Origin: Gossypium raimondii
Taxonomy: Eukaryota > Streptophyta > Magnoliopsida > Malvales > Malvaceae
Assembly: GCF_025698545.1 (NCBI RefSeq)
Contig: NC_068569.1
Location: 15,376,001 to 15,440,000 of the forward strand
Reading direction: 5' to 3'
Length of the DNA stretch: 64,000 nucleotides
Part shown: in pieces, positions 19,536-60,931 of the stretch
Position numbering within the stretch: the stretch's first letter is position 1
Layout: every line of letters begins with the position of its first letter
Program-made: the position numbers and the translations under genes
The notes under the pieces: model-generated
Told to the model about the DNA's origin: nothing
Seen by the model: only the letters and a program-made list of their open reading frames with translations
Databases searched by the model: none

Positions 19536-20325
19536 CTAGACTTGTTCATAGGTCGGGCTACCCGTTCAGATTTTAAGGCGCGTTTAAAATTTAGAAGGAT
19601 TTGGAAAAAAATATTAGGCCCCAAAAATGGGTTTGAACAAAAAAATTAAGACTGTTTAAAATATGGGTCGAGCTTGAACATTCAAGGCCAAATCCTGGAA
19701 AGCCTGACCCGACCCGACTCGACTCGATCCATTTTTAAGTTTATAATATTTTATATTATGTTATTTTTATATATTATGTAATTTAAAACACATTAAAAAA
19801 ATTAAACATATACTAAATATATAATACTACTCTAACATAAACGTTAAAATAATTTTAAAATGACTATATAAAAATTTTCAATAAATAAAAAAATATTAAA
19901 TATAAAAATAAAATAAATATTTTTTAAAAAATAATATGAGCGAATTTAAAATGGGCTTGGGTGTAACACCCCCTACCTATATTCGTTGCCGGAATAGGGT
20001 ATGAGGCATTACTGGAGTTTTCCGAATTAATTTTTCCGTTATTACGAGTTAAATATTATTCTTTTATTGAAACATATTATGACGTCCCTTAGATGGGCCT
20101 CCGAAACCCAAAACATACACCGATATCAAACCAAATCAACCAATCCAATTCAACATATTTTCAAGATAGATTTACGCATATCCATAAGATAACCTCGTCA
20201 CATACCAAAAGCATGATTTGATAGCCATACCATACCAATGGCTAACTTTACATTCATCCCACATTAACATTTACTTTATCAACTTATACACGCCATTGAT
20301 TCCAAAATAAAGTTCTTGATATACC

Positions 20326-23267
20326 TGTAATGGCCTAAATTCAAGATTATCGGAACAGTGGTTTCGTAACCACAAATCCGAATTAAAGAGAAATTTATTT
20401 TAATATTTTTGCATGAATATTGATATGATATGAAAATCGTATGAAAATATCGATAGAAAAAAAATTATCGATTTAGTAGTTAGTTAGAAAAAGAAATTAT
20501 TGAAGAAATTGGGTAAAAACAAGGTATCGAGACCTCGATCTCGTAAAACTGAGTCAAAAATATTTTTATAAATATTTATGAAATGTTAGTAATGTGGTAT
20601 TAAAATTTTGTTAGAAAATTTTAATGTTTGGGTAGTAAATTAAATGAAAAGGACTAAATTGGAAAAAGTGTAAAAGTGACTGGGATGATTAAATAGCTTA
20701 AGTGTCTAATGAGAAAGGATTTAAAAGGCAATTAGACCCAAAATTTATTTGGGCTGGACGGCAAGGGCATGAAATCAGCAAGAAAATGGATGATTTAAGG
20801 GCAAAATTGGAATATTGCATAATTAACTAAATAAATTAAGACTAATGTAGAAATATCTAGATTTCTTGTGATTTCTCTTCATTCTCATCAGCCAAAACGC
20901 CATAGGAGGGGTTCTTTAAGCTGGTATTTCATAATTTTTGCACCAAGTGAGTTAATTCTTACCTTTTTCTTTTAATTTTTGTTTTTTTAATACTTTTACA
21001 ACTAGGTTCTACTATTAAATTCATTAGTTTTTGATTTCATGGATGAAATTGAAAGTCACCATGGTTGAGTGCTGTAAGTTTATGATGAAATAGCATGAGA
21101 TTGAAGCTTTAATTTGTTTATGAGATGATTTTATTAGGTAATTTCAATAGAAATTTATTTTTAGGACATAATTGTGAAAAAGATGGAATTAAAGTCTAGT
21201 GCTCAAATTCCGAGTCCCAAAGGTTATAAAGTAGTTTAAAGTGATAGAATAAAGTGTTAATTGAGAAAAATCAGCTCAATTGAGAGATTAATTAAGCAGG
21301 GACGATATTACCATTTATTAAAAGCTTAGGGGAAAATGGTAATAAACATCTTATACTAAAATAGTTTTGGACAGTAGCAGTAGACTAACTTTGAAAAATC
21401 ACCATAAATTATAGAAATCGAATTAGAGGATGAATAAAATATGAAATTAAATATTATTGAGTCTAGTTTTTTATAAAAGAAGCGATGTAAGTAATGAAAT
21501 AGTAAATCATGAGATATAATAAATTTTGCGAGATAAGGTCAGAATGAATTCGGGTTCCCCTGTTCTGACTTTGGAAAATCATTAAAAATTGGAGAAAAAT
21601 AATTAGGGGTTAAAATTTACATGTTTAAATTATTAATGAGTCTATTTTCAATATAAACAAATGGAAACATCATCAAAATTTTGTACTAAGAGATAATTAA
21701 ATTTTGGCAAAGAAAGGTCGAAGCTGTCAGACAGCAGAACAGGGGTAAGTTTTAAAATTTTACTGTACTTATTGGCTAAACCAAAAATTCTGAAAATTTT
21801 ATGGTGGAAAGGTATTTGAGTCTAGTTTCAGAAACACAAAACTTTTTTTAATTTGGAATTCTGTAGCTTGAGATATAAATAATTTAGTGACTACGACTCA
21901 AGTAGACAACTTTGAATGAACTATAAATAATAGTGAAATTATAGAGAATGTTACATATGAACATGAAATGTATTAAATTGATGATTAAGCTTATTTATTT
22001 AGATCCAGAAAATTCAAATCTGAAGCTAGATCGAGGAAAGGAAAAAGTTCGGGATTAGTAGATTTTTATATACGAACAAGTATCAAGGTAAGTTCGTGTA
22101 ACCTGAATTATATTCTTAAATGCTTGAAATGTATGTTATTGATGTGAATATGATTTAAATGTTAATTGTATGAAAATTTATGAAACATTGATATATTTGA
22201 TAAAAAGGGGAAGAAATCCTGATTGAATGAAAGGAAAATTCGATTGATCTTTAAAAAAGAAATTGACAGTAAAAAAAAGATCTAGTCCTGACGGGTGATC
22301 CTATCTTGATATAGCATTCCCGAAGAATGTAAAATGGATTTAGCCTGGACGGGTAATCTGAATTAGGGTCTGAATTTAGCCTGAACTGGTAATTCATATC
22401 CAAACTCATTAGAGTAAATTGTCGTTGAGGATTTGACTGAATCGGTAATCTATTTGTAAGGATGAGGTTCATGAGTGTGCTCTCTGAAATGGAAATGTGC
22501 GCACATGAATATGAATTGACGGACCCAGAATAGTATGCTAAAATTGTACCTTTGAAAATCCATTGAAATTTCGAGAAATTTAACGGGATAAATACGAGAA
22601 ATAATAAGGGTAATAGAAAACATGGAATTGATAAGCTCATCAATCATTAATCTTTATATTGAATTCATATGATGCTATTTGATTAATGTTTTGGTTAAGT
22701 TTGTGTGTGATAAGTAAATGGTAAATTGAATGGATGTATGAAAATTTATTGTATTGTATTGAAAATATTAGGTAAGTATAATTCTTGTTACATGAGCTTA
22801 CTAAGCATAACTTGCTTACCTTGCTTCCTTTTTCCCTGATTTGTAGTATTAAGAGCTCGGAGGTAGGATTCGGTCGGAGACACATCACACTACCAGCTTC
22901 AACATTTTGGTATGTTAAGAACCTTTATTTTGGAATCAATGACGTGTATAAGTTGATAAAGTAAATGTTAATGTGAAATGAATGTAAAGTTAGCCATTGG
23001 TATGGCTATCAAATCCTGGTTTTGGTATGTAATGAGGTTATCTTATGGATATGCCTAAATCTTCTTGAAAATATGTTGAATTGGATTGGTTGATTTGGTT
23101 TGATATCAGTGTATATTTTGGGCTTCGGAGGCCCATCTAAGGGACGTCATAATATGTTTCAATAAAAGAATAGTATTTAACTCGTAATAACAAAAAAATT
23201 AATTCGAAAAACTCTGGTAATGCCTTATACCCTATTCCGGCGACGAATATTGGTAGAGGGTGTTACA
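20326..23267 (+). repeat. Forward LTR of the composite (about 2.9 kb)
   Basis: Begins TGTAATGG and ends GGTGTTACA, and is followed five bases later by a primer-binding site. The matching reverse LTR lies at 26860-29858 (2999 bp). LTRs of 3 kb are long for Ty3/gypsy but seen in plant Tekay/Del-like families; the family name is inferred. Confidence 0.85.
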
Positions 23268-23272
23268 TTTGT

Positions 23273-23284
23273 TGGTATCATAGC
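23273..23284 (+). other. Retroelement primer-binding site
   Basis: A sequence closely resembling TGGTATCAGAGC, the complement of the initiator tRNA-Met 3' end, sits just inside the forward LTR. The mirror copy lies near 26841-26854 in the reverse half. Confidence 0.7.
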
Positions 23285-23402
23285 TACGATTTAGCTGGTT
23301 CTTGGGCTGACATAGCAAATATAGGATTAGCTATATACGTCATTTAAATTATTATTGATAGTGTGATATCTCCTGACCATTTAAATGTGTTTTTTTTAGT
23401 AA

Positions 23403-24990
23403 ATGTCTACTAACCGAGCTCAATCCGAGGAAGCCGGGCGTCATGCTCTGGCCCTAGAAAGGGAACAAAGAGAAGTTGAAGCTACTAGTAGTAGAAGGTC
23501 CGAGACAGGGGACCAAAGTGAAGAGGCTAAACTGGCTTTCTTTCAAATGATGAATGAATAGTTTAATCAATATGTGAGAACTAACCCTGTAATGCAGCAA
23601 ACTCAAGCTCCTCTTTCTCCACCGGTTTTCGAGATTCCACAGGGTACAGGTACTGAATCTATCAAAAAAGGGAAAGCTCCAGTTGATAAAATCAGAAAAT
23701 ATGGGGCAAAAGAATTCAGAGCTGCAGTTGATGATGATCCTGAACGGGCTGAGTTTTGTTTAGAAAATACTACTCGAATTTTGGAAGAATTATCATGCAC
23801 ACCAGAAGAATGTCTGAAATGTGCTATTTCACTGCTAAAAGACACAACTTATCATTGGTGGAACACTAAAGCTTCGGTAGTTCCGAAAGAAGAGATTACC
23901 TGGGAGTTCTTTCAGAACGAATTTAAAAAGAAATATATCAGCCAGAGGTTTCTTGATTAAAAAAGAAAATAATTTTTTGAGTTGAAATAGGGCAATATAT
24001 CGATATCTGAGTATGAAAGAGAACTTGTTCGGTGGAGTAAATATGCTCGGGAATGGGTATAATCAAAAGCTGAGATGTGCAAGCGGATTAAAGAGGGACT
24101 GAATAAAGATATCAAGTTACTGATTGGAATACTTGAAATCCGGGAGTTTGCTACACTGGCTGAGCGAGCTTATAAAATAGAGGAATTGAGTAAAGCGAAG
24201 AAATAAGGTGAAAGGGAAGCTCGGGTTTTCAGCAAAAGACCGATGGGAAAATTTCAGTCATCTTCTGTTACAAAGAAATTAAAGAAGTACTCTGATCGAT
24301 CTATTTCTATGACGGGCTATTTTAGAAAAGAACGAGACTTTCAACGTACTAACCCGAGATCTCTCATTCCGTTTGTGACTATATGGGTAGTGTCAGCAGT
24401 CCTAAGCCGAGATGTCAGTACTGTAATAAAGCTCATTTTGGAGAATGCCGGCTGAAAAGTAGGGTTTGTTACCGATGCGATTCATTTGATCATTTCCTCA
24501 GAGATTGTCCAGAAAGGGGTGAAAAAGAAGCTGAACAGACATCAAAGCCGAGTAATCCAGTTTCGAGGGGTAGACCACCTCGACCATTCGATAATATCAG
24601 TGGTAGCCGAGAAGCTACGAAAGATACTGCAGGCAGGCCTAAGGCACGAGCATCTGCTAGGACATATGCCATTCGTGCCAGAGAAGATGCCTCAGCACTC
24701 AAGTTATTACTGGTACATTTTCTTTACTTGACACTGATATTACTGCATTAATTGATCTCGGTTCTACACATTCATATACATGTATAAAGCTTGCATGTGT
24801 TAAAGATTTATCTATTGAACTTATTAGATTTGGGGTTAAAGTCTCGAATCCCCTGGGTCAATCTGTTTTGGTGGATAAAATTTGTAAAAATAGTCCACTA
24901 ATGGTAAGAGGTTATTGTTTTCTGGCTGATTTGATGTTACTACCATTTGATGAATTTGATTTGATATTGGGCATGAACTGGCTAACCTAG
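23403..24990 (+). pseudogene. Fossil gag and protease start, forward half
   Basis: Recognisable parts are a gag capsid-like region (about 23670-23960), a CCHC zinc knuckle (CYRCDSFDHFLRDC, near 24470) and the beginning of a retroviral-type aspartic protease (about 24740-24990). The assignment is Ty3/gypsy. The frame is broken in more than two places. Nothing of pol beyond the protease remains. Confidence 0.8.
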
Positions 24991-25149
24991 CATGATTATC
25001 ATTTATTAAAAGCTTAGGGGAAAAATGGTAATAAACATCTTACACTAAAACAGTTTTGGACAGCAGCAGTAAGCTAACTTTGAAAAATCACCATAAATTT
25101 TGGAAATCGAATTAGAGGATGAACAAAATATGGAATTAAAGCTTATTGA

Positions 25150-26700
25150 GTCATGCCCAATATCACATCAAATTCGTCAAATGGCAGTAACATCAAATCA
25201 GCTAGGAAATGATAACCTCTTACCATCAGTGGACAATTTTTACAAATTTTATCCATCAAAACAGATTGACCCAAGAGGTTCGAGACTTTAACCACAAATT
25301 CAATAAGTTCAATAGATAAATCTTTAACACATGCAAGCTTTATACATATATATGAATGTGTAGAACCGGGATCAATTAATGTAGTAATATCAGTGTCAAG
25401 TAAAGAAAATGTACCAGTAATAACATCGGGTGCTGAGGCATCTTCTCTGGCACGAATGACATATGTCATACCAGGGCTCGTGCCTCAGGCCTGCCTACAG
25501 TATCTTTCGTAGCTCATCGGCTACCACTGACATTACCGGATGGTCGAGGTGGTCTACCCCTCGAAATTGGATTACTCGGCTTCGATGTCTGTTCAGCTTC
25601 TTTTTCACCCCTTTCTGGACAATCTCTGAGGAAATGATCAAATGAACCGCATCGGTAACAAACCCTACTTTTCAGTCGGCATTCTCCAAAATGAGTTTTA
25701 TTACAGTACTGGCATCTCGGCTTAGGACTGTCGACACTACCCATACTAGTCACAGACGAAATGAGAGATCTCGGGTTAGTGTGTTAGAAGCCTCGTTCTT
25801 TTCCAAAATATCCCGTCATAGAAGTAGATTGATCAAAGTACTTCTTTAATTTTTTTGTAACAGAAGATGACTGAAATTTTCCCATCGGTCTTTTGCTGAA
25901 AACTCGAGCTTCCCTTTCAGCTTGTTTCTTCTCTTTACTCAATTCATCTATTTTATAAGCTCGCACAGCCAGTGTAGCAAACTCCAGGATTTCAAGTATT
26001 CCAATCAGTAACTTGATATCTTCATTCAGTCCCTCTTCAAACCGCTTGCACATCTCGGCTTCTGATTGTACCCATTCCCGAGCATATTTCCTCAACCAAA
26101 TAAATTCTCTTTTATACTCAGATACCGATCTATTGTCCTGTTTCAACTCAAGAAATTCTTTTCTTTTCTGATCAAGGAACCTCTGGTTGATATATTTCTT
26201 TTTAAATTCATTCTGAAAGAACTCCCAGGTAATCTATTCTTTCGGAACTACCGAAGCTTTAGTGTTCCACCAATGATAAGCTGTGTCTTTTAGCAGTGAG
26301 ACGACATATTTCAGACATTCTTCTGGTGTGCATGATAATTCCTTCAGGACCCAAGTAGTATTTTCTAACCAAAACTCAGCCCGTTCGGGATCATCATCAA
26401 CTGCAGCTGTGAATTCTTCTGCCCCATATTTTCTGATTTTATCAACCGGAGCTTTTCCTTTTCTGATAGATCCGGTACCTGTACCCTGTAGAATCTCGAA
26501 AATCGGTGGAGAATGAGGAGCTTGAGCTTGCTGCATTACAAGGTTAGTTCTCACATATTGGTTAAACCATTCATTCATCATTTGAAAGAAAGCCATTTTA
26601 GCCTCTTCACTTTGGTCCCCTGTCTCGGACCTCCTACTACTAGTAGCTTCAATTTCTCTTTGTTCCCTTTCCAAGGCCGGAGCATAACTCTCGGCTTCCT
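25150..26700 (-). pseudogene. Fossil gag and protease start, reverse half
   Basis: The mirror copy of the forward half holds a gag region (about 26234-26674 and 25784-26146), a CCHC zinc knuckle (CYRCGSFDHFLRDC, near 25650) and a protease start with a DPGSTHSYI-type active-site segment at about 25143-25469. It is better preserved than the forward half but still broken in a few places, and lacks reverse transcriptase and integrase. Confidence 0.8.
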
Positions 26701-29700
26701 CGGATTGAGCTCAGTCGGTAGGTATTTACTAAAAAAATATATTTAAATGGTTAGGAGATATCACATTATCAATAATAATTTAAATGACGTATATAGCTAA
26801 TCCCGTATTTGCTATGTCGGTCCGAGAATCGACTAAATCGTAGTTCTGATACCAACAAATGTAACACCCCTTACCTATATGCGTCACTGGAATAGGGTAC
26901 GAGGCATTACCAGAGTTTTTCGAATTATTTTTTTCATTATTACGAGTTAAATACTATTCTTTTATTGAAACATATTATGACGTCCCTTAGATGGGCCTCC
27001 AAAGCCCAAAACATACATCGATATCAAACCAAATCAACCAATCCAATTCAACATATTTTCAAGATAGATTTACGCATATCTATAAGATAACCTCATCACA
27101 TACCAAAACCAGGATTTGATAGCCATACCAATGGCTAACTTTACATTCATTTCACATTAACATTTACTTTATCAACTTATACACTCCATTGATTCCAAAA
27201 TAAAGTTTCTTGATATACCAAAATGTTGAAGTTGATAGTGAGATGATTCTCCGACCGAATCCATCCTCCGAGCTCTTAATACTACGAATTAGGGAAAAAA
27301 GAAACAGGGTAAGCATGTTGTGTTAGTAAGCTCATTAACAAGAATTATACTTACCTAATATTTTCAATACAATACAATAAATATTCATACATCCATTCAA
27401 TTTACCATTTACCTATCACACACAAACTCAACCAAAACATTAATCAAATAGCATCATATGAGTTCAATACAAAGATTAATTATTGATGAGCTCATCAATT
27501 CCATGTTTTTTTTTACCTTTATTATTCCTCATATTTATCCCGTTGAATTTTCTCGAAATTTTGATGGATTTTCAGAGGTACACTTTTAGCGTACTATTCT
27601 GGGTCCGTCAATTCATATTCATGTGTGCACATTTCCATTTCAGAGAGTACACTCCCGCGAACCTCATCCTTACAGCGGGATTACCAGTCCAAGCTAAATC
27701 CCCTATAATATAAACTTATAGAGTATTGTTGGGATTACCAGTCTAGGCTAAATCCCCTCCAACGACAATTTACTCTAATGAGCTTGGATCTGAATTACCA
27801 GTCCAGGCTAAATTTAGACCCTAATTCGAATTACCCGTCCAAGCTAAATCTATTTTACACATATTATTCGGAAGGGCTATATTAGGATAGGATCACCCGT
27901 CCGGGTTAGATTTTTTTTTTTACCGTCAATTCCTTTTTAAAGATCCATCGAATTTTTCTTTCATTCAACCGGGATTTCTTCCCCTTTTTTATCAAACATA
28001 TCAATGTTTCATAAATTTTCATACAATCAACATTTAAATCATATTCACATCAATAACATACACTTCAAGCATTTAAGAATATAATTCAGGTTACACGAAC
28101 TTACCTTGATACTTGTTCATATAAAAAAATCTACTAATCCCGAACTTTTTCCTTTCCTCGATCTAGCTTCGTATTTGAATTTTTTGGATATAAATAAATT
28201 TAATCATCAATTTAATACATTTCATGTTCATATGTAACATTCTCTATAATTCCACTACTATTTATAGTTCATTCAAAGTTATCTACATGAGTCATAGTCA
28301 CTAAATTATTTATATCTCAAGCTACAGAATTCCAAATTAAAAACCGCTTGGTGTTTCTGAAACTAGACTCAAATACCTTTCTACCATAAAATATTTAGAA
28401 TTTTTGGTTCAGTCAATAAGTACAGTAAAATCTTCAAACTTACCCCTATTCTGCTGTCTGATAGCTTCGACCTTTCTTTGCTAAAAATCAATTATCTCTT
28501 AGTAAAAAATTTAGATAATGTTTCCGTTTGTTTCTATTGAAAATAGACTCATTAATAATTTAAAAATATAAATTTTAACCCCTAATCATTTTTTTCCAAT
28601 TTTTAATGATTTTCCAAAGTCAGAACAGGGGAACCCGAATTCATTCTGACCTTTTCTCACAAAATTTATTATATCTCATGATTTATAATTCCATTACTTA
28701 CACCATTTTTCTATGAGAAACTAGACTAAATAAGCTTTAATTCCATTTTTTTATCCTCTAATTCAATTTCCACAATTTATGGTGATTTTTTTAAAGTTAG
28801 CCTATTGCTGCTGTCTAAAACTGCTTTAGTGTAAGATTGTTATTACCATTTTTCCCCTAAGCTTTTAATAAATGATAATTTCATCCCTGCTCAATTAACC
28901 TCTCAATTAAGCTAATTTTTCTCAATTAACACTTTATTCTTCCACTTTAAACTACTTGATAACCTTTGGGAATCAAAATTTCAGCACTAGACTTTAATTC
29001 CAACTTTTCACAATTAGGTCCTAAAAATCAATTTCTATTGAAATTACCTAATAAAATCATCTCATAAACAAATTAAAGCTTAAATTTAATGCTATTTAAT
29101 CATAAACTTACAGCACTCAACCATGGTGACTTTCAATTTCATCCATGAAATAAAAAACTAATGAATTTAATAGTAGAACCTAATTGTAAAAGTCTTAAAA
29201 ACACAAAAATTACAAGAAAAAGGAAAGGATTAACTCACTTGTTGCAAAAATTATGAAATACCAGCTTTAAGAACCCCTCCTATGGCGTTTTGGCTGATGA
29301 GTATGAAGAGAAATCACAAGAAATCTAGATATTTCTACATTAGTCCTAATTTATTTAGTTAATTATGCAATATTCCAATTTTTCCCTTAAATCATCCATT
29401 TTCTCGCAGATTTCATGCCCTTGCCGTCTAGCCCAAATAAATTTTGGGTCTAAGTGCCTTTTAAATCCTTTCTCATTAGACACTTAAGCTATTTAATCAT
29501 CCCAGCCACTTTTACATTTTTTTCAATTTAGTCCTTTTCATTTAATTGACTACCCAAACATTAAAATTTTCTAACGAAATTTTAATACCACATTACTAAC
29601 ATTTCATAAACATTTATAAAAATATTTTCGACTCAGTTGTACGAGATCGAGGTCTCGATACCTTTTTTTACCCAATTTCTTTAATAATTTCTTTTTCTAG

Positions 29701-30000
29701 CTAACCACTAAATCAGTAATTTTTTTTCTATCGGTATTTTCATACTATTTTCCTATCATATCAATATTCATGCAAAAATATTAAAATAAATTCCTCTTTA
29801 ATTTGGATTTGTGGTTACGAAACCACTATTCCGATAACCTTGAATTTAGACCATTACATTGGGTTAGTCTTTTACAAATATAGACAGATTTATATAAAAT
29901 TTTAAACCTATATTTTGGGTCGGGCTGGGCTTGGACAAATATAAAATATGTTAATATCATATTTAATCCCTGCGGGAACCTGGTCCACGGGCACCTCTAG

Positions 30001-34240: not shown

Positions 34241-36522
34241 TGTAACACTCTTATACTCAACCTGATCGCCAAGTTAAGATATCGAAATGCTACATTTGTT
34301 GCCAAAGCAAAGATAATCAAATTCGTTTCATTCTGAATACTTGTTTAATCACATTGATCAATTTAAGCTTTTGATATGCCTTAGTATCATTTTCGAGTCT
34401 GATACAGGTTTATTGCAGCCTTTAAAATAGTCTAAAGAGGAACAGAGACTAGAGTGAAAGGCTTTCAAAATTTAGGGGTGACATCACGATGTTGGGGTGT
34501 TCCTTGCTACGACTTCACAAACTGACTTATGTCGTCGCGATGTGGTTCCTTCGTCATCACGTCAAGAATTCTATTTCCCATGTTTTTATCATATTTTTAA
34601 GTTTTTAACATCCAAGTCCCTTTTCAAAGCTCAAAATTCAATTAATTCGACTCATTTCACATAGCAAATCATTCAGATTTAAGTATTTATATTTTCAAAT
34701 CCACATAATATAACACGATATTCAAACAAAAATAACAATGCTTATAAAATTGACACAATTATCAAAGTTTTACAAGTAAGTCCATTAGAGATTCACACTT
34801 ACAAATACAATTTATTTTTTCTACATACCATGACCCATTAATTTATTAATTAGGACTTCATCAAATCATTTTATGAGAATCACTTGCCTAGTACCATAAC
34901 AAAGCATTTGAATTTATTTTATGTATTTTCAAGTCCATTATTTGCAACAATTCCTTAGTATTATCACTCTTCTATTATTTTGCTTCCTCCTCTCTTCATT
35001 CCACATCCTTAATATATATTTTCTTCTACATAATTTTTTCTCTTAATGATCATGCCTATGTGTGACATTAATTAAGGTTTTTTTAATTACACAATACTCT
35101 TATCAAGGTTGTACATTTGAGTGTCAGTCAATAAAATTATTTATATCTTGGCCTATAGGATTCGAAATTAGAATATGCTTTTTATTCTTGAAACTACACT
35201 CGATGAAATTTTTACCATAAAAATTTCAAAATTTTTACTTATTCCAATTAATACAGTAAATTCTTTAAAATTTTCCCTATTTTGTTGCTAGGCAACTGTG
35301 ACCCTTCTTCACTAAAAATTAAAGTTCTTAAGTTAGAACAGGGGAATCTGAAATCAATCTGAACTTGTCTCACAAAAATTCATATATCTCATAATATAAA
35401 ATTCTTTTACTTACACCGTTTCTTCTATGTAAAACTAGGCTCAATAGGATTTAATTTCATACTTTAATTAACCTCTAATTCGGTTATACAATTTTTGGTA
35501 AAATTTCAAAGTCAAACTACTACTACTGTCCAAAATTGTTTTAGTGCAAAATGTTGGTAACAAAGTTTATAACACCCTCATTTCCTTTCTCTACAATATT
35601 TCCCATCACTTCCTCTTATTTCCCTTCACTAACATATTAAGAACATACAACTTTATATAAGAAAATTCACTTTAACATCATTTTCATGCTTTTTTTAATA
35701 ATATCAAACTTAAAATATATTGAAATCTTGATGTTTTTACATTGTCCTATTGACTTTAAACTTTAACTTGTTTTCTCTTTCCTCCAACTTCTATTTTTTT
35801 GAATTTAAGATAATATTCTTGCTCTCCATAGTCTCTCTATCACTTTTATCTCTTGGTGATTATGGAAATTCCTTGAAATTCTAGGTGAAAATGATGGATT
35901 TTTGGTGGAAGGATCAAATTGTAACGAAAGAAAAGTTTTTTACATCTCTCCCCCTCACTCACATTAGAAAGATGGGAGGATCATCTCTTTTTTTTCATCA
36001 TCTTTCTCTCCTTTTATACTAGCTATTTATAAGAAAATATTAATAAAATATCTTATTAAAATATTAATAAAGTAATATTTATCTAATTAAATAATTATAA
36101 AATATCATCAAAATATCCCTACATCATCATTGCCTTCTAGAGTTCTCTCTCTTTCTAATTGATCATTTTGTCCTTGAATAATCACTTAATTTGGTAAAAT
36201 TACAATTTAGTCCCTTATACTTTTTTGCTTATTCAATTTGGTTCTTATTAATCCATTTTCCTAAATTTCTAGATCTTTCTACCTTTAGCATATTTGCACT
36301 ATTGGCTTTTCACTTTAACTTTTCCATATTTATACTTATGCCACAAAACTTTTTGCATATATACAATTTAGTCCCTTCCTTAATTTAATACATTATGTTT
36401 TGCTTCTTGATTTAACTTTCTTTTGATATCTTGCAACTTTCGTTTTCTTTGATTTTATAGATTTTTTTGCTAAGATTTTATCTCATATTATTTACTACAA
36501 ATGGAATTTTGAAGATGTTACA
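34241..36522 (-). mobile_element. Solo LTR of a Ty3/gypsy element (about 2.28 kb), reverse orientation
   Basis: Bounded by TGTAACACTC and GATGTTACA with a perfect 5-bp target duplication AATTC at 34236-34240 and 36523-36527. Reverse orientation is inferred because the left end, read on the minus strand, gives 'acttggcgatcagg...gagtgttaca', matching the 3' end style of the other solo LTR. The stretch at about 35150-35550 is diverged kin of the composite LTR at 28310-28800, so the families are related. No internal region remains. Confidence 0.88.
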
Positions 36523-50824: not shown

Positions 50825-53500
50825 TAATACATGCACGGATGGGGTGAAATTTATTAAATTTCAATCACCAAAGATACCAATTTTTAAGCTTGAGAAATCA
50901 GTAGACTTGCGATGACTTTTTGAATGAGATTCTGGCATTTTTGAGTCGAGATGTCACATGGAGTTTGAAGATCTATCTCTTAGCTTCGAAGCGTATTTTG
51001 AATCACTCGATTTTGAGTTCGGGAGCTCAAGTTATGACCGTTTTAGTGAAGACTGCGTGAGCAGAATTTCTGAACGGGATTATGACAGGAATTATGAATT
51101 TCGGGCTTTTAATTCGAGTTTAAATCATATTGGGTTCAGGTTTTAGGCTTAATTTTTATTATATATGAACCCAATATTGTATTTATCAGCTATTTTAAGT
51201 TATTTAAGAGTTTTTTTTAGAAGAGTTTTAACAATCTTTTTAGATTGTGGAGATCATTTTTAAACTTTTTCTTGCCAAGGTATTTATCTTGGAGGGGAAT
51301 TAGAGCCGCTTGAAGGGAGTTGTGAATTTTTCGTGTTTCCAATGCTTCTTAGGACTTCTATACGACATGTTCTATCTTTCCATTTATCTTCTGTATTCGC
51401 TTCCTTAATTTTTGATTTATTATTTTATTTTAGTTAATTATTTTAATTATTTTATCTGACTTGGATTCAATTTCGTTTCAGGTTGTGTCAAAATCCAAGT
51501 TTCTTTCCAAATGTCTAGAGTCCTAAGTCAAATCCGCGACTTTGACAAACTTTACAATCCACTATCGCGTTCATCCTTCTCATCCTTTATCATTTGGAAT
51601 CAGATTTGGGCGTTTTAGGTATTCTTTTTATTTTTATAAACTGATTTTTAGCAAACAGCCTCAAAATAATTTTTTTTACCCCGACAGTTTTCGGAAAAAA
51701 TATTTTTCAGTGGGTAAACAATTTTCAAACGATTTAAAATTTTAGAAACTATTTTTTGGCACTATTTTAGAGTATAAAAAAATATTTCTCACAAAAAAAA
51801 GTGATCGAAAAGTAAAAAAAATACGAAAAAAATAAAAAAAATATTATGTGGGTTGAATTTTGTGCTGAAAATTTCCAGATCAGATCTACATTATTTGAGA
51901 AGGCTCCAGTTTAAATTTTGTAATTTTTGGAAATTGGGAACACCTCGAACGAAGTTTGTTAAGTTATTTTGCAATTTTTCGGGTTTTTGGGTTTCAACAA
52001 CTTTCATTGACTCTTAGCCTTAGGTTTTCATTTGTTTTTTTCTTTTTATTGTTCCGTTATGCATTCTAACACTTTATTGTTTCTTGTGTTAGTAGGTTAA
52101 AGCACGTTGCACATTCTTTCCTCCGTGCAATAAAATTATTTGATGTCTAGCTGATTTTGGACTCATAATGCTCTTAGGTTTGCTTTGTTAGTTTGATTCT
52201 AATACATTCTAATTGATTGATATCGACACTTTTTAAAAGACTCACAAGATTAATTCTTACCTCATTGAGAATTTGATTTTTATTTCTGAGTGCATAACAA
52301 TGACATTTGCTTAAATTTTCTTTTCTTGAGTGTTGTGTTCTTTTCAGGCTTTCATAATGATTCGCAATACTATGATGGGGAAGTTGAGAAGGGATCAAGA
52401 GGTTCGAAATGCTCGAGATCAGCAATGTGACACTATTTTAAACACGATCAACAAAAATTTAGAATGTCTAAGTACAAAAATTAAGCTTCGAAATCGTAAT
52501 TGGGGAGATAAATTGATTAACCTCGTCTTCGTGCAAATAATGCTCGACATGTCTCTTGTGCAAATGATGAGACTTTGGTTAATAATGACCATAGACAACA
52601 TTTTTTAGCCAAACCAAAGTTCAACATTCCACCATTTCGAGGGAAGTATGATCCCGAAGCATTTTGTGATTGGGAATTAAAAATTGAACTTATGTTTCGT
52701 TACTATAAATGCCAGGAAGAGGAAAAAGTCCAATTGGCAATCCTTGAATTTTCAGATTATGCATTGAGTTGGTGGATTCAACTTGGAATTGATCGTTAAA
52801 GAAACCGTGAAACGGTAATTGAAACATGGGACGAGTTTAAGCAAATGATGCAAAAGCGTTACATTTCTTCTCATTACTATAGAGAGGTCTCAACGAGACT
52901 TCAATGCATTGTTCAAGGTAATCAATCTATTGATGAATACTTTTTGTTTAGATTAAATTATAATTCTAGTATACTTAAGAGTTTTATTTAGATATATTTA
53001 GCTAGCCTATATATTGGCCTTTGCATTGTACACAATTTAGACAAATTCATTATTATTCTATTTCTCTTTTGAGTTAATAAATTTTCTCTAGGTTTTTCTT
53101 TTCAAGAATTTCTCAAGTTTCTTTTAGAAGAGTTTTAATAATCTTTTTAAATTGTGGGGATCATCTTCAAACTTTTTCTTGCCAAGGTTTCTATCTTGGA
53201 GGGAAAATTAGAGCCGCTTGAAGGGGGTTGTAGATTCTTCGTATTTTCAAGGCTTCTTAAGACTTCTACACGCCAGATTCTATCTTTCCATTTATCTTCT
53301 TTATTCGCTTCCTTAATCTTTGATTTATTATTTTATTTTAGTTATTTATTTTAATTATTTTATCTGACTTAGATTCAATTTCGTTTCAAGTTGTGTCAAA
53401 ATCTAAGTTTCTTTCCAAACGTCTAGAGCCCTAAGTCAAATTCGCGACTTTGACAAATTTTACGATCCGCTTTAGCGTTCATCCTTCTCATCCTTTATCA
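50825..53500 (+). mobile_element. Small gag-only LTR retroelement inserted in the LINE (fossil)
   Basis: Flanked by the 5-bp target duplication CCTTC (50820-50824 and 53501-53505). About 390 bp near its left side (51205-51592) repeats at its right end (53116-53500), both ending 'ctcatcctttatca'; these are LTR parts. The left LTR appears to span 50825-51592, but the sequence before the right-hand copy differs, so the two LTRs do not match over their 5' parts. The inside holds a Ty3/gypsy-type gag piece (about 52600-52960) and no pol. It is broken, with a few breaks in gag. Age is moderate, since the shared LTR parts differ by roughly 8-10% by eye. Confidence 0.8.
52600..52960 (+). pseudogene. 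Fossil gag fragment in the LTR element
   Basis: The retrotransposon gag signature is readable: FNIPPFRGKYDPEAFCDW, then YALSWWIQL, then a basic RYISSHYYREV segment. Family Ty3/gypsy. The gene is broken and stops at the right-hand LTR region; no zinc knuckle, protease or pol follows. Confidence 0.75.
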
Positions 53501-55199
53501 CCTTCATAGCAAACCCAAACAACCAGCCTCATGATGAATCTCGAAGAACACCACCAATAGTAGGATTAGAGTACTGTAACGATAGTGCGCCATCTGTATT
53601 AAACTTAACCCATCCTTACTCAGATGGATACCAATTATCACGAGTGATTGTGCTGCACATAAGTTGATCCATACATTTATAATTAATGATATTTCTTATC
53701 CAAGCCATGTATTTCGAAATCAGATTGCTACTGTTACTACTTGCTTGTTGGAAAATGAATTCATTTCAACCCTTCCAAAAGTAGCCAATACATGATTATT
53801 AAGAAAGATGGCCATTCGCCATCAATTTTCGTGATGCCTTCCCTCATTCATGATGTTCCATTTCAATCAAGTTTCTAACAGATAATTAAATAAAGAAGTC
53901 TAAATATTTTTAGGCACAATAGTCTTCCAAACCGTGATAGAAAATTGGCAATCTTGCACAACGTGAATTGGTGTTTTCACAAGTCCACCACACTGCACAT
54001 AGTGAGCATCATCAACCATTCCACGTCTCACTCTCTCCCCATTAGTAAGCAGCCATAAGAAGACCCTTACTCGTTGGAGAGTATTAACTTTCTAAATCGA
54101 GTTATCCTTTTGTGGTAGCAAATCTCTTCTCTCAACAAGTTTGTAAGTTTCAGAAGAAGAGAAACATCCTCCATACAAGTTGATCAGGATCTGCAGCTTG
54201 GTGTAGGCGGTAAAATTGTTGCAATACAAGCTAAAATGTGTCGAGGAAGAAGCAATTCAAGTCGATGCCAATTCCAAGTTCCACCAGCTTTGACCAAATC
54301 ATAAACATGGAGAGTTTCATCGATATATACTCTGCTTATATGATGCATTTAAAGAGAGCCAATATCTTTTACCCAATGATCATTCTAGAAATTTGCTAGC
54401 CGTCTTGATTAAGAAGAAGAATTCATAATGGAAATTCGTTCTATATTTTTATTGAACAAGTGGAGAGCTGGAATTCTATTCTTTGTGTAAAAATCTTAGA
54501 TTTTGCTAAGTTGCAATAACAATTAACTATGAAACATTTTGTGATTTTTAGGTTAGATTTTGAAAAGGGAATATATTCAATTAGCTTGGGTTGTATGGCT
54601 TAGGCCTAAAATGAGGTTTTTTACGCAAATAGGGTAAGAAAAAAAAATCCACTGAAATAGGGTGTCAGAAAAAATATTTATCAAAATGGGTTACTTTTTT
54701 CATTGGTGCCTATTAGATAGGCGCCAATGAATAAAAAAATAATATTTTTTGAATAAAATATATTTTTATATTTTTTTAATAATTTTTAAAAAAATACGGG
54801 TCAAAATACGGTCAACGGGACGGGTCGGGTGGCGCCTATCAAGTAAGCGCCAATGAAGGTGCCTCATAGAGAGGCGCCAATGGTGGCCTCTACCCATGCA
54901 TTGCAGGCTACTCCAAAGACATGGTCTTATCCCCTCATGTTTGTTTTTTTTTTTGCCTATAAGTAAATGGTCCCAACATGCAATGGGCACGGTAAAGAAA
55001 AAAAAAAGAGAGAAAGGAGAAAAGAAGAAGAAGAAAGAAAGAAAAAAAAGGTAATGTATTATTTTAGTAAATAAATTTGTTTATAATTTAAAAAGTTTAT
55101 AGTTTGTGAATTTTTTAGAAGATATTTTAGAAGATATTGTGAATTTTTTTATTAATTACTAATTATAAATTATCTATATTTAGTGTTTATAGTTTGGAT

Positions 55200-55510
55200 T
55201 AGAATTTTGTATGAATATTCTAATTTTTTGTATGAATATTGTAATTTTTATGAATATTATAATTATTTTATAATTAAATTTGTATTTATAATTTTGCATT
55301 AGTATTTTGTATGAATATTGTAATTTTTGTATGAATTTGTAATTTTGTATGAATATTGTAATTTTTTGTATGAATATTGTAATATTATAATTTTATATGA
55401 ATATTGCAATTTTTTTGTATGAATATTGTAATATTGTAATTTTGTATGAATATTGTAATGTCGAGATATATTGTAATATTGTATTTTTTGTATGAATATT
55501 GTAATTATTT
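55200..55510. repeat. Minisatellite-like TATGAATATTGTAATTTTT units in the left arm
   Basis: An imperfect tandem array of about 20-bp units, mirrored in the right arm at about 57000-57330. It accounts for the IFIQKLQYSYK-like spurious open frame on the plus strand at 57121. Confidence 0.8.
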
Positions 55511-55888
55511 TATAATTAATTTGTTAGTAATTTAGGATTATGTTATAAATTTTGTGTTTGTAATTATTTAAAATTTAATTTATTAGTAATTTAGGATTAA
55601 GCTATAAATTGTTGAGTTTAGTTTAGTATTTGGTGAGTTTAACATATAAAGTTTATAAAAAATTAAAATCATTTTATTAAAAGTTTAATTATAAAAATTA
55701 AAATCATTTTATTAAAAGTTTAATTATAACTGACTTTTTAATCATATAGTTGTTGTTAACTCATTTAATTTTTATATAATGTAACTTTTATATAATTTAA
55801 TTTTATTTGATTTTGTATTTATTTAACAAGAATTATTAATTTTTGAAACAAATTAATGAATTCATTTTTTGATTGCGATTTGTAGGAA

Positions 55889-56717
55889 ATGAGTTTTCTA
55901 ATTAATAATAATAATCACATATCAAGTACTATTAATGAGATGGTAATAAAATTTTTATTTGATATTCATGTTATTTGCTAAATTAAATTATATTGCATTA
56001 ACTATTTTGCTAATTTAATAATGTCAGGGTCCGTACCGCGTACTGAGGGGCCGTGTTAATTGTGTAGGGTTTCAGCCAGATGAACGCCTAATACCATACT
56101 TAGAGTTAGCCAGGTTCGGATCAGCGGCATTGATCCGGACTTTTGATCTGCGATATGACTTGATTTTCACTTTATTCGAGCGATGGCGTCCGGAGACCCA
56201 CACATTTCATTTGCCGTGCGAAGAGTGTACCGTCACTTTAGAGGATGTCGCAGTACAGCTCAGGCTTCCCATAGACGGGAATGCGGTCACGGGCGTAAGT
56301 TCAATCTCTAGGCCGGCTACCCTTTGCAATGAATTACTTGGACGCTCGCCAAGTCAGGGGAAATTTACCAGTTTCAGATTTTCATGGCTAAAGGCCAATT
56401 TTGAGTATTTGTCAAGTACTGCTAATGAATGGGAGGTGATGCAAGCTGTTCGAGCTTACATTATGCACCTTATAGGGGGTGTACTCATGCCGGATGCAAA
56501 CGGTAGTAAGGTCCACTTGATGTACTTACCCCTATTATCCAATTTGCATAACACTCGTTCATACAGTTGGGGGTCCGCAGTTTTAGCCATGTCAGATCGC
56601 GAACTTTGTTTGACGACGCCTCCTTCTGCGGTTGACATATGCGGATGCCTCATCATCATGCGATCGTGGACACTTTACCTTAATTTGTTTCAAAAATCAA
56701 TAATTATTGTTAAATAA
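55889..56717 (+). CDS. Plant mobile domain (MAIL1/MAIN-like) protein, C-terminally truncated
   Basis: Exon 1 is 55889-55942 (MSFLINNNNHISSTINEM), with an 85-nt GT-AG intron; exon 2 is 56028-56717. Together they give 247 aa without a stop. The plant mobile domain start is clear: GPYRVLRGR, then YLELARFGSAALI, then LPCEECTVTLEDVAVQL, LRLPIDGNAVTG and SYSWGSAVLAMSDRELC. Full proteins of this family (MAIN, MAIL1, PP7-long-form) go on well beyond this point. Here the frame runs into the right arm at about 56680 and stops about a dozen codons later, so the second half of the domain is lost. MAIN/MAIL1 act in gene expression and transposon silencing; whether this piece is expressed is unknown. It sits wholly inside the foldback element. 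Confidence 0.75.
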
Positions 56718-57489
56718 ATACAAAATCAAATAAAATTAAATTATATAAAAGTTACATTATATAAAAATTAAATGAGTTAACAACAACTATATGATTAAAA
56801 AAGTCATTATAATTAAACTTTTAATAAAATGATTTTTAATTTTTTATAAACTTTATATGTTAAACTCACCAAATACTAAACTAAACTCAACAACTTATAG
56901 CTTAATCCTAAATTACTAATAAATTAAATTTTAAATAATTACAAACACAAAAATTTATAACATAATCCTAAATTACTAACAAATTAATTATAAAATAATT
57001 ACAATATTCATACAAAAATTACAATATTACAATATATCCCGACATTACAATATTCATACAAAATTACAAAATTACAATATTCATACAAAATTACAAAATT
57101 ACAATATTCATTACAAAAAATTGCAATATTCATATAAAATTATAATATTACAATATTCATACAAAAAATTACAATATTCATACAAAATTACAATATTCAT
57201 ACAAAAATTACAATATTCATACAAAATACTAATCCAAAACTATAAATACAAATTTAATTATAAAATAATTACAATATTCATAAAAATTACAATATTCATA
57301 CAAAAATTAGAATATTCATACAAAATTCTAATCCAAACTATAAACACTAAATATAGATAATTTATAATTAGTAATTAATAATAAAAATTCACAATATCTT
57401 CTAAAATATCTTCTAAAAATTCACAAACTATAAACTTTTTAAATTATAAGCAAAATTATTTACTAAAATAATACATTACCTTTTTCTTT

Positions 57490-57525
57490 TCTTTCTTCTT
57501 CTTCTTCTTCTTCTTCTTCTCCTTT
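57490..57525. repeat. CTT/TTC microsatellite in the right arm
   Basis: A run of about eight TTC units with flanking T/C tracts. The left arm has the matching 'aagaagaagaag' at about 55023-55050. Confidence 0.8.
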
Positions 57526-57930
57526 CTTTTTTTTTTTCCTCTACTGCGTGCTGTTGCATGTTGGGACCATTTACTTATAGGCAAAAAAAAAAACATGAGG
57601 GACAAGACCATGTCATTGGTGCAGCTGCAAATGATGGGCGAAGGCCACCATTGGCGCCTCTCTATGAGGCACCTTCATTGGCGCCTACCTGATAGGCGCC
57701 ACCCGACTCGACCCGACCCGTTAACCGTATTTTGACCCGTATTTTTTTTAATTTATTAAAAAAATATAAAAATATATTTTATTCAAAAAAATATTATTTT
57801 TTATTTATTGGCGCCTATCTAATTGCCACCAATGAAAAAAGTAACCTATTTTGGTAAATATTTTTTTTGACACCCTATTTCAGTAGAATTTTTTTTTCTT
57901 ACCCTATTTGTGTAAAAAACCCCTAAAATG

Positions 57931-58258
57931 TATTGGATTGAGGCAGGCTTGAATTGGGTCCATTTGATTTCGGATTCGATATCTATTCCGACGTGGCAAC
58001 TTACATCCAGAGTCTGCTTCTACGTGGCTTTATTCAATTGGAGGTCACATTAATCACAAAGAAGCCAGTTGCGGAGGATTACACCCACTGCCCAGCAAGG
58101 CATAGCCTTCCTCTTCCACACACGGCTCTGGAAATTGTTATCTTTCAATCCATCCCATTATCTTTTAACCTCTAAAAACACACTGCAAAAAATGAAAAAT
58201 TAACAGAGAAAAAAAGGACATAGAGAGGCAGAGATTATTCAGAAATTAGTTTTAAAAA
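57931..58258. other. Upstream region of the DYW-type PPR gene
   Basis: About 330 bp between the foldback element and the PPR start. A 73-codon open frame (57954-58175) has no family match. It probably holds promoter and 5' UTR, so the transposon sits very close to the promoter. Confidence 0.5.
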
Positions 58259-60931
58259 ATGGAGAATCTGATGATTACTTGTATTTCAAAACCTCCTGTA
58301 ATAATCCCAACAAAACATGACAACTTATCTGAATTTTCTCAACCCCAAACCAAGCTCTCCTTTACTTACACAAAAAACAACAAAAACCCAAAAATCACCG
58401 ACAACCATGTAAAGTACCTCGCACGAAGCGGCCGCCTAGCTGAAGCTGTAGCCGCTCTTGATTCAATTGCTCTCAGTGGGTCTCAGGTAAGACCCAATAC
58501 CTTCATTAGTTTACTTCAGGCTTGCATTGATTTCGGGTCTCTCGACTTGGGTCGAAAACTCCATGCCCGAATCCATTTAGTTAAAGAAAGTGACCCGTTC
58601 GTTGAAACCAAACTTGTCAGCATGTATGCGAAATGTGGGTCCTTTGCTGATGCTCGTAAGGTGTTCGATGAAATGATTCAAAAGAATTTGTACACTTGGT
58701 CTGCTATGATTGGTGCCTATTCCAGAGTGTCGAGGTGGAAGGAAGTTGTGGAACTTTTCTTTTTGATGATGGAAGATGGTGTTTTGCCTGATGAATTTTT
58801 GTTTCCGAGAATTTTGCAAGCTTGTGCTAATTGTGGGGATGTTAGGACCGGGAGATTGCTGCATTCTTTAGTAATTAGATTGGGGATGGTTTGTTATACA
58901 CGTGTTAGTAATTCGGTTTTAGCTGTTTATGCAAAGTGTGGGAAATTGAGGTCTGCGAGGAGGTTTTTCGATTACATGAACGAGAGGGATAGAGTGACTT
59001 GGAATTCAATGTTATTGGCGTATTGTCAGAAGGGCGAGAATGATGAAGCTTATAAATTGTTTAATGGGATGTGGGGTGAAGGAATAGAACCGTGTATTGT
59101 TTCATGGAATATATTGATTAATAGTTATAATCAGTTAGGGCGATGTGATGTGGCTTTGGGGTTGATGAAGGAGATGGAGAGTTCTAGGGTAAGTCCTGAC
59201 GTCTTTACTTGGACCTCAATGATCTCGGGGCTTGCACAAAATGGTAGGAGGTGGCAGGCCTTGTTTTTGTTTAAGGAGATGCTTTTGGCTGGGATCAAGC
59301 CTAATGGTGTTACTATCACAAGTGCAGTTTCCGCTTGTGCATCCTTGAAAGTATTAAAGCTGGGGCTTGAAATTCATTCAATTGCCCTTAGGATGGGAAT
59401 AACTGATAATGTGCTTGTTGGAAACTCCCTTATTGACATGTATGCTAAGTGCGGGGAACTGGAAGCTGCGAGGCAAGTCTTTGATATGATTGAAGAAAAA
59501 GATGTTTATACTTGGAATTCAATGATTGCTGGATATTGCCAAGCTGGGTACTGTGGGAAGGCTTATGAACTCTTTATCAAAATGCAAGAATCTGATGTGA
59601 AGCCCAATGTGATTACATGGAATACAATGATCTCAGGATACATACAAAATGGAGATGAAGATCGAGCCATGGATCTTTTTCAACGAATTGAACAGGATGG
59701 AAAGATTAGGAGAAATACAGCATCTTGGAATGCTCTTATCGCTGGTTATGTGCAACTTGGGGCTATAGATAAGGCATTTGGAGTTTTCCGACAAATGCAA
59801 TCATGCTCCATTAGTCCAAATTCAGTAACTATATTGAGTATCTTGCCTGGTTGTGCGAATTTAATTGCTACGAAAAAGGTGAAAGAGATCCATGGTTGTA
59901 TTTTGCGGAGGGATTTAGAGTTTGTAATCTCTATTTCAAATTCTCTAATAGACACTTATGCAAAGTCAGGTAATATATTATATTCTAGAAACATATTTGA
60001 TGGAATGTCGACTCGAGATATTATTTCCTGGAACTCAATAATAGGCGGTTATGTTTTACATGGTTGTTTTGATGCTGCCCTGGATCTCTTCGATCAGATG
60101 AGAAAGTTGGGGATTAAACCTAATAGAGGTACCTTTTTAAGTATTATCCTTGCACGTGGTATTGCCAAAATGGTGGATGAGGGAAAACAGATTTTTTCTA
60201 GCATCAGTGACAACTATGAGATTATACCAGCCATAGAACATTACTCAGCTATGATAGATCTCTATGGCCGCTCTGGTCGGCTTGGAGAAGCAATGGAGTT
60301 TATTGAAGACATGCCTATAGAGCCCGACTCCTCTGTTTGGACTTCCTTGTTAACTGCCTCTAGGATTCATAAGGATATTGCTTTGGCTGTCCTTGCAGGG
60401 GAACGGTTACTTGATTTGGAACCAGGAAATATTGTGGTTAACCAATTAATGTATCAGATATATAGCTTGTGTGGGAAATTGGATGACTCTTCAAAAGTGA
60501 GAAAGCTTGAAAAAGAGAGCACATTACGAAGATCTCTTGGGCACAGCTGGATTGAAGTCAGGAATACGGTGCATGCATTTGTCACTGGTGATCAATCTAA
60601 GCCATCCTCAAACCTTCTGCATTCATGGGTTCAAAACATCACTAGAGAAGTGAACATAGATGACCATCATGGTGGATTTTTCATCGAGGAAGAAAAGAAA
60701 GAGGAAATTGGCGGCATTCATAGTGAAAAACTTGCAATAGCTTTTGCCTTGATCAGCTCACCTTCTTCCCCTCAAAGTATAAGGATTGTTAAAAACATCA
60801 GAATGTGTAGGAACTGCCATTTAACTGCCAAGTATGTTTCCTTGAGATTTGGGTGTGAGATATATCTGAGTGATACAAAGTTCTTCCACCATTTTAAGAA
60901 TGGGCGCTGTTCTTGTGGAGATTATTGGTAG
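58259..60931 (+). CDS. DYW-class pentatricopeptide repeat protein (DYW7/At1g19720-like)
   Basis: Intronless, 890 aa. A short basic N-terminus precedes PLS-type PPR motifs from about residue 45 to 700. Repeats such as LVSMYAKCGSFADARKVF, TWSAMIGAYSRVSRWKEV and TWNSMIAGYCQAGYCGKAY are easy to see. An E/E+ region follows with a GHSWIEVRN motif (family PG box) near residue 762. The DYW deaminase-like domain carries the HSE zinc and catalytic motif in IHSEKLAIAFALI (about residue 822), the metal CxxC in CRNCHLTAKY (about 851) and the terminal GDYW. Such proteins bind organelle RNA and often carry out C-to-U editing. Wording and length closely resemble Arabidopsis At1g19720 (DYW7, about 894 aa). 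The target site and whether it acts in mitochondria or plastids are unknown. Confidence 0.93.
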   Translation: MENLMITCISKPPVIIPTKHDNLSEFSQPQTKLSFTYTKNNKNPKITDNHVKYLARSGRLAEAVAALDSIALSGSQVRPNTFISLLQACIDFGSLDLGRKLHARIHLVKESDPFVETKLVSMYAKCGSFADARKVFDEMIQKNLYTWSAMIGAYSRVSRWKEVVELFFLMMEDGVLPDEFLFPRILQACANCGDVRTGRLLHSLVIRLGMVCYTRVSNSVLAVYAKCGKLRSARRFFDYMNERDRVTWNSMLLAYCQKGENDEAYKLFNGMWGEGIEPCIVSWNILINSYNQLGRCDVALGLMKEMESSRVSPDVFTWTSMISGLAQNGRRWQALFLFKEMLLAGIKPNGVTITSAVSACASLKVLKLGLEIHSIALRMGITDNVLVGNSLIDMYAKCGELEAARQVFDMIEEKDVYTWNSMIAGYCQAGYCGKAYELFIKMQESDVKPNVITWNTMISGYIQNGDEDRAMDLFQRIEQDGKIRRNTASWNALIAGYVQLGAIDKAFGVFRQMQSCSISPNSVTILSILPGCANLIATKKVKEIHGCILRRDLEFVISISNSLIDTYAKSGNILYSRNIFDGMSTRDIISWNSIIGGYVLHGCFDAALDLFDQMRKLGIKPNRGTFLSIILARGIAKMVDEGKQIFSSISDNYEIIPAIEHYSAMIDLYGRSGRLGEAMEFIEDMPIEPDSSVWTSLLTASRIHKDIALAVLAGERLLDLEPGNIVVNQLMYQIYSLCGKLDDSSKVRKLEKESTLRRSLGHSWIEVRNTVHAFVTGDQSKPSSNLLHSWVQNITREVNIDDHHGGFFIEEEKKEEIGGIHSEKLAIAFALISSPSSPQSIRIVKNIRMCRNCHLTAKYVSLRFGCEIYLSDTKFFHHFKNGRCSCGDYW

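Follow-up and report, generated by a model that had tools for sequence, protein, structure and literature searches.

The mirror-image block of about 9.9 kb at positions 19962-29858 of the window (by which we mean the whole 64,000-nucleotide stretch of Gossypium raimondii DNA analysed here, G000:C5:15376001-15440000) most likely represents an old autoinsertion in antisense whose centre has collapsed, an arrangement of a known kind. One long terminal repeat (LTR) retrotransposon, P, would have inserted antisense in the 3' LTR of a relative, M, and the centre of the resulting palindrome would later have been lost, a reading to which we give a probability of about 0.75. The block lies between two TTGGG words and consists of two opposite-facing Ty3/gypsy-type copies, P (+) at 20326-24994 and M (-) at 25153-29858, with the following parts:

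19957-19961, no strand: TTGGG, left 5-bp target-site duplication of M; the target repeat is uninterrupted elsewhere
19962-20325, minus strand: last 364 bp of M's 3' LTR; inverted match to the end of P's LTR, direct match to the end of M's 5' LTR
20326-23267, plus strand: complete 5' LTR of P; its first base directly abuts M's LTR
23268-24994, plus strand: primer-binding site region, degraded gag with CCHC zinc knuckle (PF00098) and start of the protease of P
24995-25152, plus strand: central LTR fragment of 158 bp, in P's orientation, with overlaps of about 2 bp at both joints
25153-26859, minus strand: start of the protease, degraded gag (Retrotrans_gag, PF03732) and primer-binding site region of M
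26860-29858, minus strand: complete 5' LTR of M
29859-29863, no strand: TTGGG, right copy

Self-comparison returned the block as one inverted pair, 20326-24976 against 29858-25151, 90.6% alike over 4723 alignment columns, and a primer-binding site region is present in both P and M, in keeping with the initial annotation, which had described facing copies of LTR, primer-binding site, gag and protease start. The LTR fragment that it placed at the centre, at about 150 bp, measures 158 bp and matches P's LTR at 21307-21463; the protease stops that it called almost coincident are about 18 bp apart (P at ~24994, M earlier, at the equivalent of ~24976); and the single outer TTGGG pair proposed for the whole block is indeed there. 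That layout stands with one refinement: the sequence at 19962-20325 is not P but the 3' terminal part of an LTR oriented as in M, with a proper LTR terminus at 19962 and a truncation at 20325 where P starts, and the outer TTGGG pair therefore belongs to M.

Both P and M have LTRs with TG...CA ends (TGTAATGG...GGGTGTTACA), and a 5-bp target duplication flanks the block, as is diagnostic of LTR retrotransposons; in both P and M a TTGGTATCA-type sequence, a putative match to initiator Met tRNA, lies a few bases past the LTR. Pfam searches found PF03732 (E 4.6e-11) in one ORF of M and PF00098 (E 1.4e-4) in one ORF of P, which identify a gag with zinc knuckle, and gave no match for two further ORF pieces of P and M. 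Since P and M are without pol, domain order was read in the relative C1, where a weak RVP_2 match (E 0.0013, below the cut-off) is followed downstream on the same strand by RVT_1 (E 2.6e-10), with no domain match in the ORF between them; protease followed by reverse transcriptase, not by integrase, is the Ty3/gypsy order.

M inserted on the minus strand into an older genomic repeat, duplicating TTGGG. When the flanks of the block were joined with one TTGGG and searched against the genome (750,779,957 bases in 281 contigs, contigs C1-C13 being 48-63 Mb each), the 39 non-window matches among those listed (40 of 1016 candidates scored) all ran across the joint, the fortieth scored match being the window's own right flank. 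All eight copies of the target repeat that were fetched are uninterrupted at the insertion site, the five-base word being exactly TTGGG in three of them and a variant in five. Given that the target repeat is uninterrupted elsewhere, one integration produced the outer borders. Given further that both of these carry M-type termini (on the right M's LTR starts, and on the left an LTR oriented as in M ends), the block is best read as M interrupted by P, with the ends and the duplication of the host element M lying outside its guest. At the inner left joint the exact first base of P's LTR, 20326, is joined to the interior of another LTR, and such an exact terminus is a mark of integrase-mediated insertion, which supports nesting. 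ATACC at 20321-20325 would be the remaining left-side target word of P, whose right side is deleted; that P's right-hand target duplication is gone, leaving the insertion visible on one side only, counts against nesting. These borders also bear on a different origin, in which two elements inserted side by side, not nested, and were then joined by deletion or inversion. Opposite-facing neighbours do occur in the family (at a C12 locus described below), yet adjacent insertion does not give M's 3' LTR end with TTGGG outside P, and the order M-end, P, M-start is contrary to it, so that we consider this origin quite improbable.

Antisense nesting followed by loss of the centre would have proceeded from M's integration as follows. 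P, a member of the same burst, would have integrated on the plus strand inside M's 3' LTR, 364 bp short of its end, with the U3 terminus of P at 20326, as is read from the joint on the one surviving side. The product would have been a palindrome in which almost two full elements lay around a spacer of about 370 bp. Loss of its centre, with the two pol genes and the greater part of two 3' LTRs, would have followed, a process suggested by the joints left in the DNA, where the protease stubs are connected through the 158-bp LTR piece with the short overlaps listed above (read by eye). If the arms were paired, as a hairpin or cruciform, while the centre was cut, resected or copied across, symmetric ends would result, and the near-coincidence of the two stops would have its explanation. 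In the relative C1 the internal region measures about 7.95 kb (15670950 to 15678901); over such a length, two ends placed independently would lie no more than 18 bp apart in about 0.5% of cases, a post hoc figure that assumes uniform ends, and a link between the arms is accordingly likely.

The 158-bp piece is probably either what is left of P's 3' LTR or filler from DNA repair, joints with filler DNA resembling one that has such a piece and such overlaps. At one site it has an A, in common with P, with M and with 2 of the 10 further burst loci, both C12 LTRs having G; this shared A and P's orientation make P's own 3' LTR a possible source, and the piece perhaps came from there. The idea that it is far less mutated than P was weakened on counting, as it has 0 private substitutions against 3 in P, with 7 in M and 1-7 in the ten other burst loci, a marginally low value.

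The initial annotation had pointed to the central junction as something to be looked for elsewhere in the genome; its joints were found whole in the window only, on the matches listed and on pattern searches with up to 3 mismatches whose further hits are given below. A 381-bp stretch over the centre had a whole match in the window only among the matches listed (40 of 4932 candidates scored), the other 41 matches being either confined to the LTR piece (39) or the window's own opposite arms (2). The second central joint had a single match in the 751-Mb genome at up to 3 mismatches; the first had one exact match and 70 further matches with 2-3 mismatches, the reversed control pattern giving 31, and P-type LTR or gag-protease was absent from all 7 of those 70 that were fetched. 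Likewise, the left joint at 20325/20326 was matched whole in the window only among the matches listed (40 of 2713 candidates scored), and matches extended left of 20326 by at most 6 bases, except in two loci, L033 and L035, which have no LTR left of the joint. Inverted duplications are a recognised product of amplification and of long-read library chemistry, and a fold-back arising in sequencing or assembly could in principle produce a block of this shape. Such an artefact should have near-identical arms, yet here 365 of the 4636 ungapped sites compared differ between the arms (7.9%), 269 by a transition and 96 by a transversion, and the block has its 5-bp duplication, intact, in a repeat that is continuous elsewhere; a fold-back artefact is therefore very unlikely, to the point of having scarcely any probability. 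With 1.3e-8 substitutions per site and year the arms would have parted, as a rough estimate, about three million years ago.

Two origins had been offered at the outset, nested insertion with deletions and a single event that copied the element inverted, of which the first is favoured by structure (M-type LTR ends at both borders, the exact terminus at 20326, and a C6 locus with both duplications, described below) and the second is allowed by phylogeny. In the second, nascent cDNA in one aberrant reverse transcription would have turned back in the protease, either on itself or onto a second co-packaged template, and been copied outward as far as the exact LTR end; the palindrome so made, which still carried a 3' LTR end, would have integrated once and acquired one TTGGG. 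We regard this as unlikely, with a modest share of the probability. It would suit the one duplication for the whole block, the near-identical protease stops and the exact LTR end at 20326, as well as several aspects of kinship. Over gag-protease, each of P and M has the other as its best match, at 92%, among the matches listed (40 of 3880 and 40 of 3828 candidates scored), followed among those listed by C12 (90-91%), C1 (89%), C6a (88-89%) and others at 87% or less. In a gag tree of 14 sequences, which took in 9 other loci fetched from longer match lists of P and M, the two are sisters (89.4/90), with branch lengths of 0.0064 (internal), 0.050 and 0.043 (terminal). The pairing of P with M is the best topology in both the LTR and the gag data sets. 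Over the 364 bp of LTR end, finally, M's own two LTRs are no closer to each other than P is to either (M5-M3 23/359, P-M5 23/365, P-M3 24/358), the three ends being equally distant. The reciprocal matches, the gag sisterhood and these equal distances count against nesting as well as for a single event. Also unfavourable to nesting are the LTR states that P and M alone share, 4 in number and all transversions, the gag p values of no more than 0.07-0.08 for trees that pair P or M elsewhere (both given below), and the marginally low substitution count of the central piece.

Against a single event, the P-M distance over the LTRs equals that of other pairs from the burst. It is 7.8%, inside the 6.2-8.7% range of other burst pairs, P-C1 being 7.2%, M-C1 6.9% and other members similar in a star-like pattern, whereas C12m and C12p, a pair of shared origin, are 4.4% apart. 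In the LTR tree itself (22 loci, the other 34 of 56 having failed a length filter) the P+M node is weak, at 67.2/62. Shared states were compared within the burst on 10 of those 22 loci together with P, M, C12m, C12p and C1. Among the 105 pairs of these 15 LTRs, P and M share 4 exclusive states, all transversions, which places them fourth in the list, and the C12 pair shares 29. The AU test rejects none of the topologies in which P or M is joined to a different member (p 0.14-0.61 for LTR, 0.07-0.08 for gag), one gag alternative failing two weaker measures, and a control topology pairing C12m with L002 is rejected. Of the 201 differences between P and M, 50 are common to at least two other loci on each side, as are 22 of 116 in the C12 pair; the fraction in other pairs is 0.20-0.33, and this count does not separate nesting from a single event. 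Aligned with each other over 2384 columns, the two LTRs of C1 show 140 mismatches, of which 88 are gaps. On the star-like LTR distances and the equal distances of the LTR ends, P and M are products of one burst, with a split of about the burst's age; by the same measures the kinship data cannot date P after M, and would neither prove nor refute a single event. Structure adds to what speaks against it, in that a turned-back cDNA does not of itself explain either the sense-oriented LTR end of 364 bp that lies outside the inverted LTR or the 158-bp LTR piece. Those 364 bp start upstream of the TATA-like word (22947), unlike strong-stop R-U5, and strong-stop DNA as their source found no support from the TATA-like and AATAAA words, a weak test in either case.

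Other loci of the family are instructive on both origins. At C6:45583600-45598500 (L075, L084, L085, L086) the 3' LTR of a relative contains a reversed copy flanked left and right by ATATG, the word and the joint having been read by eye; the locus belongs to the same family and another subfamily, its LTR being 82% like P's. Its guest has an internal deletion from gag position ~990 to about the last dozen bases of the 3' LTR, its outer LTR pair differs at 40 of 1996 sites (2.0%), and inner and outer LTRs differ by 6.1-6.3%. A similar loss, from pol to the end of the 3' LTR, is seen in C6a at 36.76 Mb, and with the former locus it establishes that reverse nesting in the 3' LTR and inner loss both occur in the family. 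The locus C12:6375374-6383448 (L003, L004, L070), of the same subfamily as the block, is of another kind: a minus-strand series of LTR, gag, protease and pol stub meets an inverted LTR that is without its ~60 last bases. Both outer ends are LTR starts. The two inverted LTRs, 4.4% apart, are strongly supported sisters (100/100), and the locus looks like one element with an inverted LTR. Nesting of unrelated copies does not explain this sisterhood, which is the main reason for keeping an origin in reverse transcription under consideration. Telling the other way, the C12 locus has no 5-bp duplication and its joint lies elsewhere in pol; a search for its empty site gave no spanning copy, the flank on the LTR side being matched only over its outer ~340 bases. 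That subfamily might repeatedly make fold-back cDNA, the block and the C12 locus being two integrated products of template turning, is a doubtful proposition with a slender chance of being right; if true, fold-back cDNA would provide built-in hairpin loci against its own family.

Several other candidates were set aside. The C12 locus is not the same palindrome, since its joint lies ~135-160 bases deeper in pol and involves an inverted LTR end. A short non-autonomous family sharing the protease stop is contradicted by C1, C12 and C6a, which continue into pol, and by the protease-LTR joint, which among the matches listed or fetched was found in the window only. The pairs L032/L041 (5.9%) and L045/L052 (3.8%) were rejected for dating, as they belong to another subfamily, 16-17% from P and M where compared. 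L032 and L041 (C1:37588871-37599998) are same-strand LTR starts ~8 kb apart with identical 20 preceding bases, as in a tandem or repeated arrangement and not a plain LTR pair.

The orientation of the block has potential consequences for silencing. The 5' LTRs of P and M both point to its centre, and read-through from either across the centre would yield a self-complementary transcript. The sequence bears out the view that a transcript crossing the centre could form a hairpin of several kilobases: within the mirrored stretch of ~4.7 kb, pairing is perfect in 61 runs of 21 nt or longer, 2130 nt in total, and 48 of these runs reach at least 24 nt. By analogy with two known systems, Mu killer of maize and the nesting of EVD in Arabidopsis, it is plausible that the block is a source of small RNAs. 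EVD is a Ty1/copia element, the block being of Ty3/gypsy type, and MuDR is a DNA transposon. In an rdr6-EVD Arabidopsis line EVD inserted antisense in a copy of itself, as P would have done in M, and the authors propose, without testing it, that LTR hairpins or convergent transcription from the two 5' LTRs may trigger silencing (PMC11624286); that insertion is recent and belongs to an experimental line, whereas the block is old and has lost its centre. Mu killer is a partial inverted duplication of a transposon whose arms end inside a gene and meet centrally, and the locus silences, a hairpin being proposed from read-through of a flanking gene (PMC3440606). The block is likewise an inverted duplication of element sequence; it differs from Mu killer in that its own LTRs face the centre. 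Autoinsertion of plant Ty3/gypsy elements is reported in a survey that names G. raimondii among its species and, like the block, includes insertions in older same-family copies, with 5 bp as the commonest duplication; by contrast, nested elements there do not commonly target LTRs, which counts against nesting, and the survey's excerpted text does not describe collapsed palindromes (PMC6911290). Among the papers listed by one literature search, none was on LTR-element palindromes by title. More broadly, the block would be an example from nature, with an age of some millions of years, of self-nesting in antisense with a lost centre, and two questions can be tested on it: do long element palindromes in plants become stable through central deletion while the arms are paired, and do loci with facing 5' LTRs feed siRNAs against their family, as has been proposed for EVD and Mu killer?

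The window holds further repeats and one gene-like frame to the right of the block. About 5 kb from it, 35103-35563 is 71-79% like the family LTR, an LTR fragment that is older or of another subfamily. Two direct repeats of ~385 bp, 51209-51592 and 53116-53500, are 90.6% alike and ~1.5 kb apart, and are possibly a small LTR-type element. The interval 54605-57930 is probably a Mutator-like element, given its inverted repeats (~54615-55856 and 56680-57921, 89.5% alike) and its 9-bp duplication CCTAAAATG at 54605-54613 and 57922-57930; an ORF at 56022-56717 encodes a plant mobile domain (PF10536, E 2.2e-40). Finally, an open frame of 891 aa at 58256-60931, with PPR repeats and a DYW deaminase domain, is probably a gene of the organelle RNA-editing type.
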